Origin: Gordonia polyisoprenivorans
GTDB lineage: Bacteria > Actinomycetota > Actinomycetes > Mycobacteriales > Mycobacteriaceae
NCBI RefSeq assembly: GCF_017654315.1
Contig: NZ_CP072203.1
Coordinates: 1,116,001-1,180,000, forward strand
Direction: 5' to 3'
Length of the DNA stretch: 64,000 nucleotides
In this document: positions 26,623-29,554 of the stretch, in pieces
Numbering within the stretch: position 1 is the first letter of the stretch
Layout of the letters: each line of letters opens with the position of its first letter
The notes under the pieces: generated by a model
Told to the model about the DNA's origin: nothing
The model's database searches: none
Seen by the model: only the letters and a program-made list of their open reading frames with translations
Position numbers and translations under genes: made by a program

Positions 26623-27720
26623 TCAGTCCGGCTGGTGAAAAGCGCTGGGCCCGGACGTCGCAGGAGCGTCGTACGGGGTGGGCGGCAATCCGAACCGGGC
26701 GAAGTCCTGTTCCATGGTCTCGCTGAAGAAGGCGACCACGTGGGCGACCGCACGGGCTTCGGGGTCGAACTCGAGAACCTGTAGCTGGAACGGGCGATGG
26801 ATGCCGTCGGGCTCGCGCATGTACAAACCGAAGGCCGGCTGCCCGTTGGCGATGGTGGGCAGCAGGATCTGATCACCGGCCTTCTCGGCAGGGCAATTGC
26901 CGCGGATGAGTGTGCCGATGGCATCGCCACCGAGATACCAACCGGTGAACGGCGGCATCTCCCAGATCGAGGAATCGGTGAACATGTCGACGATGGCGTC
27001 GACGTCATAGCGTTCGAAGGCTGAAACGTACTTGGCGAGTAACTCGCGCTTCGCGTCGTCGTCCAGGGTGGGTGTCGAATCCTCTTCGGCGCGAATATTT
27101 TTCAGCTGCTCCCGAGCGCGTTGGAGGAGGCTGTTGACCGTGGCGGTGGTGACGCCGATGGTCTCGGCGACCTCGGACGCCTTCCACTGCAGCACATCCC
27201 GCAGGATCAGAACGGCGCGCTGACGCTCGGGCAAGTGTTGCAGGGCGGCGATGAATGCGAGGCGGATCGACTCACGTGCGCCGACGACGTAGGCGGGGTC
27301 GGCGTCGTCGCCCGGCGTGATCTCGTCGACGGTGCCGGCGTACGGCTCGAGCCAGGGGACCTCGTGGTCCTGGGTGAGGGTGTCGGTGGGGTCGTACGCG
27401 TCGCCGCCGAGCCCGGACGGCAGCGGACGGCGCTGGCTGCTGCCCAGCGCCGTCAAACAGGTGTTGGTGGCGATCTTGTGCAACCACGTGCGCACCGACG
27501 CGCGCCCGTCGTAGTTCTCATATCCGCGCCATGCGCGTAGATAGGTTTCCTGGGTGAGGTCTTCGGCGTCGTGATGCGACCCCATCATGCGATAGCAGTG
27601 GGCGATGATCTCGCGCCGGAAGGGCTCGGTGGCCGCGAGGAACTCGGCGTCGGAGGGGCCGGAGGACAGAGTCGTCGCCTGGGGTGTCGTCGCCTGGGGT
27701 GTGGCGGGGGTGACGGACAT
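26623..27720 (-). CDS. sigG: ECF sigma factor, SigG type, with SnoaL-like C-terminal domain
   Basis: 365 residues. Region 2 (PFRREIIAHCYRMMGSHHDAEDLTQETYLRAWRG) and region 4 (LPERQRAVLILRDVLQWKASEVAETIGVTTATVNSLLQRAREQL) are followed by a SnoaL/NTF2-like domain from about residue 220 (LLAKYVSAFERYDVDAIVDMFTDSSIWEMPP). This is the large sigma-70 subfamily that contains mycobacterial SigG; the C-terminal domain probably replaces an anti-sigma factor. ATG 27720 is preceded exactly 7 nt by TAGCCT. A 15-bp duplication in the N-terminal codons gives TPQATTPQATT. Confidence 0.88.
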   Translation of the reverse strand: MSVTPATPQATTPQATTLSSGPSDAEFLAATEPFRREIIAHCYRMMGSHHDAEDLTQETYLRAWRGYENYDGRASVRTWLHKIATNTCLTALGSSQRRPLPSGLGGDAYDPTDTLTQDHEVPWLEPYAGTVDEITPGDDADPAYVVGARESIRLAFIAALQHLPERQRAVLILRDVLQWKASEVAETIGVTTATVNSLLQRAREQLKNIRAEEDSTPTLDDDAKRELLAKYVSAFERYDVDAIVDMFTDSSIWEMPPFTGWYLGGDAIGTLIRGNCPAEKAGDQILLPTIANGQPAFGLYMREPDGIHRPFQLQVLEFDPEARAVAHVVAFFSETMEQDFARFGLPPTPYDAPATSGPSAFHQPD

Positions 27721-27727
27721 GCAGACA

Positions 27728-27733
27728 AGGCTA
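27728..27733 (-). promoter_or_regulatory. Leaderless -10 element of the sigma factor gene
   Basis: TAGCCT on the minus strand, 7 nt before ATG 27720. No Shine-Dalgarno sequence is present. Confidence 0.5.
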
Positions 27734-27907
27734 CGACGCCCCTCCGACAGCTTCCAGGTGATTGACAGACTCACGACGCGATGACGGGACGCGGCGACTT
27801 TTGTGCGGCGTGCGTCAAACCCGGGTCGACGCACTGCGCTCGCCCTATCATCGCCGGTGAACGCTCATGTGTGCAGTTCAGGGCGCGTGTTGCCGGGGTG
27901 TGACGTA

Positions 27908-27917
27908 TGCACGTGCA
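27908..27917. promoter_or_regulatory. TGCACGTGCA palindrome upstream of the leader ORF
   Basis: A perfect 10-bp palindrome at 27908-27917, about 30 bases upstream of the TAGCTT element that starts the leader transcript. It is in the right place for a regulator site, perhaps autoregulation by the ROK protein. Confidence 0.35.
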
Positions 27918-27957
27918 CGCTTGCGGATGCGGTACGCCGATTGCTAGCTTGAGCTCC

Positions 27958-28065
27958 ATGACGTGCAGCGAGAACAGCCGCATCCCGGAGGTGACCTACA
28001 TGATCACCGCCCTGGGTTGTCGTCTGCCGTTCGCTCGTGTCCTGTGTTGTTGCCGAATGTCCTGA
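27958..28065 (+). CDS. Cysteine-rich leader peptide before the ROK regulator
   Basis: A 35-codon ORF with Cys at residues 3, 21 and a triple Cys run at 30-32, ending RVLCCCRMS. TAGCTT at 27945-27950 is exactly 7 nt before its ATG, so it should be translated from a leaderless mRNA. An internal ATG at 28000 has a strong GGAGGTGACCTAC before it and gives a 21-residue version with the same CCC ending. Short leaderless ORFs with tandem Cys codons act as cysteine-responsive attenuators in mycobacteria. Here the candidate controlled gene is the ROK regulator 175 bases downstream. Confidence 0.6.
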   Translation: MTCSENSRIPEVTYMITALGCRLPFARVLCCCRMS

Positions 28066-28174
28066 TCGCCAAGTCTCTCCGCGTCCTTCTCCGACGCCCG
28101 CGATCTCTATCCCCTTTCGACAACCCTTCCCACAACGCCATCGCGGTGCTGACGGCCTCGGCGCCGCACGCCCC

Positions 28175-28189
28175 GTCGAGACGCTCGAC
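28175..28189 (+). promoter_or_regulatory. Hairpin between leader ORF and ROK gene
   Basis: GTCGAG (28175-28180) and CTCGAC (28184-28189) make a 6-bp stem with a 3-nt loop, 52 bases before the ROK start. It could be one of alternating structures in an attenuator, but no competing partner was identified with certainty. Confidence 0.35.
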
Positions 28190-28240
28190 CGTTGGACGCC
28201 CATGGCAGCCTGTGGCACATTCACGAGGACACATTCACTC

Positions 28241-29554
28241 ATGACCGCAACGATCGATCACCGCACCCGCATCGCCAACGCACCGACCTCAGCCTCGCCG
28301 CGCATCGTTCGGCCCCGCCCGATCCCCGGTGCGTCCGCCCGGGTCGATCCGCGGACGCCGCGCAAGGGGGGTCGAGGTATCCACGTAGCGACCCCGCAAC
28401 TCGAACTCTCCACCAAGCCCTCCGCGCTGGTGCTGCGCACCGCCCGACTCTCGGGACCGGTGTTCCGGGACGAAGCCGCCGAACTCACCGGACTGTCCAT
28501 CTCGACGGTCAACCGCCAGGTCGGCGCACTACTCAAGGCCGGACTGCTGCGTGAACGCGCCGATCTCGCACCGGCCGGCGCCATCGGTCGGCCGCGACTG
28601 CCCTTCGAGCTCAACGTCTCGACGTTCCTGACCCTGGGCATCCACATCGGCTACAAGGTCACCTCCATCACCACTCACGATCTGCTGCACCGCGTGGTCG
28701 GCGCGATCCAGATCCCCACCCCGATCGCCGACACCCCCGAACAAACCCTCGCCGCGATCGGCGAGAGCGCCCAACGCTTCCTCGGCCGCTGGAACAACCG
28801 CCGCGTCCTCTGGGCCGGCGTGGCCGTCGGCGGACGGGTGTCGCCCGGCGGATTCGTCGATCACCCGCGCCTGGGCTGGGAGAACGCTCCGGTCGGGCAG
28901 GTCATCGCCGAGTCGGTGGGGCTGCCGGTGTCGGTGGCCTCGCACGTGGAGGCCATGGCCGCCGCCGAGCTGGTCGTGAACCCCAGCGGGTCCGACGCCG
29001 ATCAGCGGTCGAGCTTCCTGTACTTCTACGCCCGCGAGATGGTCGGGATCGCGTTCAGCGTCGACGGCACCGTGCACACCCCGGCGGGTGGGCCGCCGGT
29101 GATCGGGCACTTCCCCGCGTCGGGCACCACCCTGCTCGACCCGAATCGGACCGGCCGGCTCGAGCCGACCGTGTCCGACACCGGCATCGTCGAGGCGGCG
29201 CAGTCGCTGGGTCTGCCGGTCAACGACATCGACGCAGTGTTGGCGCTGGCTCGTGGCGGTGACGCGACCGCCCGTGCCCTGCTCGAGGAGCGTGCCCAGG
29301 TACTCGGCCGCACGGTGGCGCTGATCGCCGACATCTTCAACCCCGATCACGTGATCCTCGGCGGGCAGGCCTTCACCGACTACCCGGCGACCCTGCCCAT
29401 CGTCGCCGGATCGCTGCGGGAGACCTCGGTGGTCCCCAATCGTGATGTGCGCGTCTCGCATTCGGGCACGACGGTCCAGCAACAGGCGGCCGGCGCGGTC
29501 TCCCTCGACGCCGTCTACAGCGATCCGCTCGCCGCGCTCGCGGTCACGGAGTAG
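28241..29554 (+). CDS. ROK-family transcriptional regulator
   Basis: 437 residues. About 60 residues of basic, flexible sequence precede a winged HTH (VFRDEAAELTGLSISTVNRQVGALLKAGLLRE), then an actin-like ROK domain (AGVAVGGRVSPGGFVDHPRLGW, PVSVASHVEAMAAAEL) and a HVILGGQAF motif near the end. It lacks the usual CxCGxxGC zinc cluster, so it is a regulator and not a sugar kinase. The overall layout resembles mycobacterial Rv0485-type regulators. It sits behind the cysteine-rich leader ORF and ends at the second repeat cluster. Confidence 0.85.
   Translation: MTATIDHRTRIANAPTSASPRIVRPRPIPGASARVDPRTPRKGGRGIHVATPQLELSTKPSALVLRTARLSGPVFRDEAAELTGLSISTVNRQVGALLKAGLLRERADLAPAGAIGRPRLPFELNVSTFLTLGIHIGYKVTSITTHDLLHRVVGAIQIPTPIADTPEQTLAAIGESAQRFLGRWNNRRVLWAGVAVGGRVSPGGFVDHPRLGWENAPVGQVIAESVGLPVSVASHVEAMAAAELVVNPSGSDADQRSSFLYFYAREMVGIAFSVDGTVHTPAGGPPVIGHFPASGTTLLDPNRTGRLEPTVSDTGIVEAAQSLGLPVNDIDAVLALARGGDATARALLEERAQVLGRTVALIADIFNPDHVILGGQAFTDYPATLPIVAGSLRETSVVPNRDVRVSHSGTTVQQQAAGAVSLDAVYSDPLAALAVTE

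Follow-up and report, generated by a model that had tools for sequence, protein, structure and literature searches.

A conserved, probably leaderless, cysteine-rich leader open reading frame before a ROK-family regulator gene in Gordonia polyisoprenivorans and its relatives

The leaderless, Cys-rich upstream open reading frames (uORFs) of mycobacteria are reportedly the subject of work by Canestrari et al. from 2020. Within these genomes Rv0485 is presumably the ROK gene between Rv0484c and mshA, in an SDR-ROK-MshA locus. A conserved Cys-rich leaderless uORF before Rv0485/Msmeg_0932, with the label “putative hypothetical”, has been described (Shell et al., 2015; PMC4633059), so both the kind of leader and its ROK target are already in print. 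Cys leaders are also predicted for mycobacterial and P. acnes cys operons and for B. longum cbs, and in the LEU element of actinobacterial leuA the regulatory codon segment pairs with a downstream Shine-Dalgarno (SD) sequence (Seliverstov et al., 2005; PMC1262725). In C. glutamicum the ROK-type regulators CysR and SsuR control sulfate and sulfonate genes; the cysR and ssuR mRNAs start at the regulator’s own start codon, so that, by the transcript starts given there, they have no leader (PMC2580772). A survey of literature titles and abstract openings, covering few subscription journals, returned nothing on a ROK leader in Gordonia or Rhodococcus.

The locus described here lies in a 64 kb stretch of Gordonia polyisoprenivorans DNA, the whole of which is called the window and to which positions refer. 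The sequence contains every element named by a first-pass annotation, i.e. TAGCTT, the 7-nt spacing, the ATG, the 35 codons ending in VLCCCRMS, the internal ATG at 28000, the hairpin and the ROK gene. The features are as follows.

27921-27926, forward strand: candidate -35 hexamer TTGCGG, 18 nt 5' of the -10 element, from a by-eye reading of the upstream regions of 33 loci
27945-27950, forward strand: -10 element TAGCTT, extended by the preceding TGC, 7 nt 5' of the leader ATG at 27958
27958-28065, forward strand: leader ORF, predicted to be leaderless, 35 codons plus TGA (28063-28065), peptide MTCSENSRIPEVTYMITALGCRLPFARVLCCCRMS, C-terminal VLCCCRMS
27987-27996, forward strand: SD-like GGAGGTGACC, 5' of the in-frame ATG at 28000, found mainly in Gordonia-like genera
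27990-28008, forward strand: inverted repeat GGTGA-N9-TCACC inside the leader, GGTCAC-N4-GTGACC in many relatives
27991-28047, forward strand: conserved peptide core V-T-Y-M-I-T-A-L-G-C-R-L-P-F-A-R-V-L-C
28037-28043, forward strand: candidate anti-SD GUGUCCU in the Arg-Val-Leu codons directly 5' of the Cys codons, paired with the ROK SD in folds
28045-28053, forward strand: tandem Cys codons TGT TGT TGC
28081-28097, forward strand: hairpin GCGTC-N7-GACGC in the interval between leader and ROK gene
28226-28232, forward strand: AGGACAC, the ROK Shine-Dalgarno and partner of 28037-28043
28241-29554, forward strand: ROK-family regulator gene (winged helix plus ROK domain), ATG at 28241, 175 nt past the leader stop

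The product of the ROK gene matches Pfam PF00480 and HTH_24 over cut-off, and its NCBIfam matches all lie below cut-off. In relatives the candidate -35 is frequently TTGCCA or TTGGAC; a sigma-70 consensus scan with a stricter rule reported no promoter and missed the TTGCGG candidate. Codon constraint partly explains the inverted repeat at 27990-28008. Next to the leader, 26623-27720 holds a divergent ECF sigma factor gene (TIGR02960 over cut-off) with a SnoaL-like tail. About 100 bases 5' of the leader, at 27846-27864, stands TATCAT-CGCCGGTGAACGC, which resembles TATNNTCGCCGGTGAACGC; by eye, similar elements, some of them variants, were seen at 9 of 14 loci of the window’s genus (g1 in our numbering of genera) and at both g10 loci, with differing upstream neighbours, and this element is a candidate second promoter or operator.

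The window leader shares with the mycobacterial leaderless Cys-rich uORFs its leaderless start, the Cys codons at its 3' end and a ROK gene downstream, and it and the leader of the ROK gene in mycobacteria are homologues. The genes downstream belong to the same ROK family, presumably with Rv0485/Msmeg_0932 among them, and six mycobacterial leaders have the window’s type of core. The same genome also bears a leader before a rhodanese gene, like the cysA2 case (Shell et al., 2015; PMC4633059). The Cys leaders of the cys operons and cbs have in common with it a Cys run near the stop and no intrinsic terminator; however, the target here is a regulator whereas theirs is a biosynthetic operon (Seliverstov et al., 2005; PMC1262725). 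A codon segment that can pair with the downstream SD likewise recalls the LEU element, although the amino acid here is cysteine and the pairing is not family-wide (PMC1262725). CysR and SsuR are ROK-type sulfur regulators, and SsuD- and TauD-like neighbours point likewise here; the likeness is one of ROK type and neighbours, and their mRNAs have no leader, unlike the ROK gene of the window (PMC2580772). The first-pass annotation had called the regulator a target not usually reported for such leaders, which the uORF before Rv0485/Msmeg_0932 contradicts in the relevant passage (PMC4633059). New in the present locus are the peptide core, the breadth of the leader, the leader-free paralogue and the likely sulfur-scavenging target.

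GC-rich DNA abounds in short ORFs, and one with Cys codons could arise by chance. A leader rule was applied that required TANNNT 6-8 nt before ATG or GTG, an ORF of 12-60 codons and CC within the last 14 residues (for other leader searches, including the mycobacterial one, the allowed TANNNT distance was 5-8 nt). The leader at 27958 is the rule’s single match on the two strands of the window, and first-order Markov DNA (20 simulations) gave a mean of 0.1 match per 64 kb strand. With that expectation, the in-frame conservation across genera and the pN/pS given below all standing against it, an accidental ORF is hardly credible. The pattern TGY-TGY-TGY-CG followed by TGA within 12 bases matched the window genome 28 times at 25 distinct places (19 in the reversed control), of which two are leaderless short ORFs (sORFs), the ROK leader and one before a rhodanese gene. 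The latter, MQQRREFMLTRRRAIDFCRVADCCCRITM at G000:C1:5437770 (L056), resembles the reported cysA2 leader; its rhodanese gene is 3-mercaptopyruvate sulfurtransferase-like with a score below cut-off. Rfam at its gathering threshold gave no match, and neither did nine leader peptides searched against NCBIfam and six against Pfam at E 10.

A search for orthologues of the ROK gene in 301 family genomes gave a match at E 1e-50 in 246. Upstream DNA was then compared in 98 genomes with a leader-type ROK, a chosen set and not a random draw, which comprised all 30 g1 genomes drawn and others picked for genus coverage. Genera are numbered; the labels Gordonia-, Rhodococcus- and Nocardia-like are inferred, and g29 is Mycobacterium by the named scan described below. 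A leaderless sORF with CC or the peptide core stands before the orthologous ROK gene in 93 of the 98 chosen genomes, which bears out the proposal of a conserved leader with Cys codons; 84 have CC near the end and at least 79 the same core, the pattern having missed S-L-G versions such as those of G281 and G042. In the orthologues the -10 element is spaced as for a leaderless mRNA, like TAGCTT-N7-ATG in the window. The first-pass annotation had asked whether the ORF is absent from close relatives; the core is present at 30 of 30 g1 loci. The ROK leader is a real feature, since it is conserved. By the rule (CC or core) no leader was found in five of the 98 genomes, three from g4, one from g26 and one from g13, the last having instead a leaderless ORF with scattered cysteines. 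The three g4 genomes (L152, L171-L173) are without a leader, though an SsuD-like gene lies near the ROK gene in L152.

Two details of the earlier description fared less well. The poly-Cys run is not essential, as the core is followed by just one Cys codon in seven relatives, and the number and spacing of C-terminal cysteines vary freely. As to the dual starts, the leaderless one accompanies the leader wherever it is found, but the internal ribosome site belongs largely to Gordonia-like genera: GGAGG precedes the internal ATG or GTG at most of their loci though not at every one, and in its place the Rhodococcus-like loci inspected have CGGG, CGCG, CGAG or similar.

A named scan, in which the best 80 of 160 relatives were kept, found a leaderless Cys-rich sORF before the ROK gene in 79 of these 80 mycobacterial records, the 80th ending at a contig end; 67 of the leaders contain CCC. 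Among the same best 80 of 160, a divergent SDR gene was present at 79 loci and MshA downstream at 78. The window’s type of leader differs from these in its core, which is common to 20 genera and missing from 73 of the 79 mycobacterial leaders (best 80 of 160), mostly with a longer Cys run in its place, and in that direct SD pairing is possible in the window’s genus. Six near-identical mycobacterial leaders in that set contain GIGSRLPLARELCC and so bear the core (three records named Mycobacteroides, three Mycobacterium sp.), and they tie together the core type and the Cys-run type of leader.

The consensus of the core, drawn from 30 rows chosen for bearing it, is approximately V-T-Y-V-T-x-A-L-G-x-R-L-P-x-x-R-x-L-C. 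Over the 30 g1 loci (28 distinct sequences) its pN/pS was 0.13 in frame and 4.16 after a shift by two bases; a shift by one base was unscorable, as stops leave one sequence there. The core is thus under protein-level purifying selection in g1, and by this difference the leader is very probably translated and selected as a peptide. The 30 g1 loci are effectively free of pattern selection because all of them carry the core. The 79 core-bearing loci were chosen by a pattern requiring G-x-R-L-P, so the invariance of those residues is by construction; the Ala and the second Arg, not fixed as such by the pattern, are identical in 79 of 79 while using 4 and 5 codons. Searched with a profile of the peptide, 81 of 121 family genomes, from 20 of 31 genera, each yielded a single strong match (E below 1e-7). 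Reuse of the core before other genes was considered and rejected, as the next best match in the 121 genomes had E 0.0017 and none was better than E 0.001. A wider search of 296 genomes from the class, with up to 26 candidates scored per genome, gave no match outside the family better than E 0.01.

Codon choice within the core shows regularities of its own. The first Cys codon after the core (28045-28047) is TGT at 77 of the 79 core-bearing loci, a preference that RNA pairing or decoding speed may cause. The first core Val is encoded by GTC at 70 of 79 loci, the second by GTG at 67 of 79, and together these codons form the palindrome GGTCAC-N4-GTGACC; L062 and L073 have matching changes on both sides. 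A reading of this palindrome as a DNA operator was rejected, since its own genome holds no exact copy and the window’s own site is altered. At 1-2 mismatches it occurs at 46 places in that genome against 10 for the reversed control; several of the 46 count one palindrome on both strands, and V-T-Y-V-T codons may account for many.

How the leader might act on the ROK gene was approached through RNA folds. For about half of 83 RNAs, folds from the leader start set the ROK SD against leader bases ~76 to 100, which hold the cysteine codons and those directly 5' of them. The SD was unpaired at 0.26 in the full RNAs, 0.33 with a shuffled upstream part and 0.37 with the leader masked to mimic ribosome stalling (paired tests 3e-5 and 2e-6), and these shuffle tests, like the swap tests that follow, leave the relatedness of the genomes in. 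Among 30 g1 species, the SD arm pairs with the leader arm better than the RNA’s other intergenic 20-mers do on average in 27 (p 6e-7) and better than within-genus swaps in 23 (p 0.0012); thinned to 11 species, the swap comparison gives 8 of 11 (p 0.10). For genera near g1 the counts are 12 of 14 against 20-mers and 7 of 14 against swaps (p 0.92). Pairing is unsupported in Rhodococcus- and Nocardia-like genera, with 15 of 30 against 20-mers (p 0.48) and 20 of 30 against swaps (p 0.08), and for Mycobacterium the result runs in the opposite direction, with better pairing in 0 of 8 (p 0.008). Pooled over groups, pairing exceeded that of other-genus swaps in 66 of 91, a result discarded because it fails outside g1 when broken down by group. 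Of seven clade sets, five had the long-range helix in their consensus fold, and in four of the five it contained a two-sided change; the helix was absent from one of three g1 sets and from the Mycobacterium set. Covariation in one fixed register is weak because the register shifts, and whole-RNA folding energy is unremarkable (z -0.40). No intrinsic terminator was found in 27721-28300, so the locus does not have the form of a classical transcription attenuator. Masking of the SD by the leader segment has about an even chance of being a step in g1; we do not extend it to Mycobacterium or the Rhodococcus-like genera, where Rho or a different structure may act instead.

Taken as a whole, the ORF is probably a leader through which the ROK regulator gene responds to cysteine. 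This is the cysteine attenuator suggested earlier, and it stays the simplest account of a leaderless Cys leader conserved in 93 of 98 chosen genomes, the responsiveness itself being what we infer. From spacing and conservation, transcription would begin at, or directly beside, the ATG at 27958, and ribosomes would start on the leader without a 5' UTR. With ample Cys-tRNA the leader would be read to its stop, GUGUCCU (28037-28043) would pair with AGGACAC (28226-28232) and ROK translation would be held down. With scarce cysteine a ribosome would stall at the Cys codons and cover 28037-28043, leaving the ROK site free. The regulator, once made, would presumably act on genes for organic-sulfur scavenging.

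Two other readings overlap with this one. The same cysteine sensing could drive a transcriptional switch in which Rho cuts the RNA short downstream and stalling alters Rho access or coupling; the lack of an intrinsic terminator, the restricted range of SD pairing and a weak suggestion of Rho for the Cys leaders before the cys operons of mycobacteria (Seliverstov et al., 2005; PMC1262725) speak for it, but the SD-specific complementarity in the window’s genus does not, and we hold it as a tentative alternative. Slightly more doubtful is an arrest peptide, in which nascent A-L-G-x-R-L-P-x-x-R-x-L in the exit tunnel would stall the ribosome at the next Cys codon, so that one Cys codon suffices. 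The strong selection on the core in g1, the identity of Ala and the second Arg at all 79 core-bearing loci and the seven single-Cys versions agree with it; however, the absence of the core from 73 of 79 mycobacterial leaders (best 80 of 160) makes the core dispensable in places. An extended form, a cysteine-sensing arrest peptide that would gauge cysteine supply by nascent chain and one Cys codon together and that Mycobacterium has mostly swapped for a plain Cys run, with ROK as a family-wide organosulfur controller, is unlikely as a whole. Peptide-level selection would also suit a small functional Cys-rich protein, e.g. a metal- or redox-binding one whose place before ROK is only operonic. 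That is very improbable given that C-terminal cysteines vary freely in number and spacing, that most mycobacterial leaders (best 80 of 160) retain the Cys run only, and that the leader accompanies the leader-type ROK and is missing from paralogues.

The likely role of the regulator can be read from the neighbours of its relatives. An alkanesulfonate monooxygenase-like (SsuD-like) gene lies near the ROK gene in L152, L161 and L164 (the L164 protein scoring 438 bits, below the 518 cut-off), and a taurine dioxygenase-like (TauD-like) gene, at 220 bits under a cut-off of 313, is also found near it. In three Rhodococcus-like loci (L157, L158, L162) the leader lies between a divergent TauD-like gene and ROK. 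MshA occurs near ROK in relatives (682 bits, over the 462.5 cut-off), being downstream at four (L148, L150, L157, L159) of seven 18 kb loci from Rhodococcus-like genomes. An earlier suggestion of a link to mycothiol is weakened at this locus: MshA is downstream in most mycobacterial and in those four Rhodococcus-like loci, but no mshA lies beside the window gene. In R. qingshengii IGTS8 the ROK regulator peg5940 stands beside tauD/atsA1, with mshA at peg5948, and peg5940 is 18-33-fold more abundant with dibenzothiophene as sulfur source (PMC8557817). Its orthology rests on neighbourhood, not sequence; the direction of change fits derepression under scarce cysteine, and transcriptional control alone could give it too. 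From these neighbours a link of the ROK regulator to organic-sulfur scavenging is likely.

A second ROK copy in g1 and g10 genomes forms a separate long branch (support 100/100, with a warning of the tree tool on long branches), and by the same rule a leader was found before 0 of 19 such paralogues; a third ROK of G068 (L156, without leader) and the ROK kinase-like L003 were not counted. The paralogue of the window genome (C1:1625290-1626435) adjoins an SDR gene, the position of the single ROK found in mycobacteria and some Rhodococcus-like genomes. ROK copies with and without a leader in one genome provide a natural pair for testing.

A leader type known from mycobacteria thus precedes the same regulator across much of the family. 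Its peptide core appears too conserved for a plain codon-counting attenuator, and the leader may do more than count codons. Control by cysteine of a regulator with a likely role in sulfur scavenging would be relevant to biodesulfurising Gordonia and Rhodococcus.
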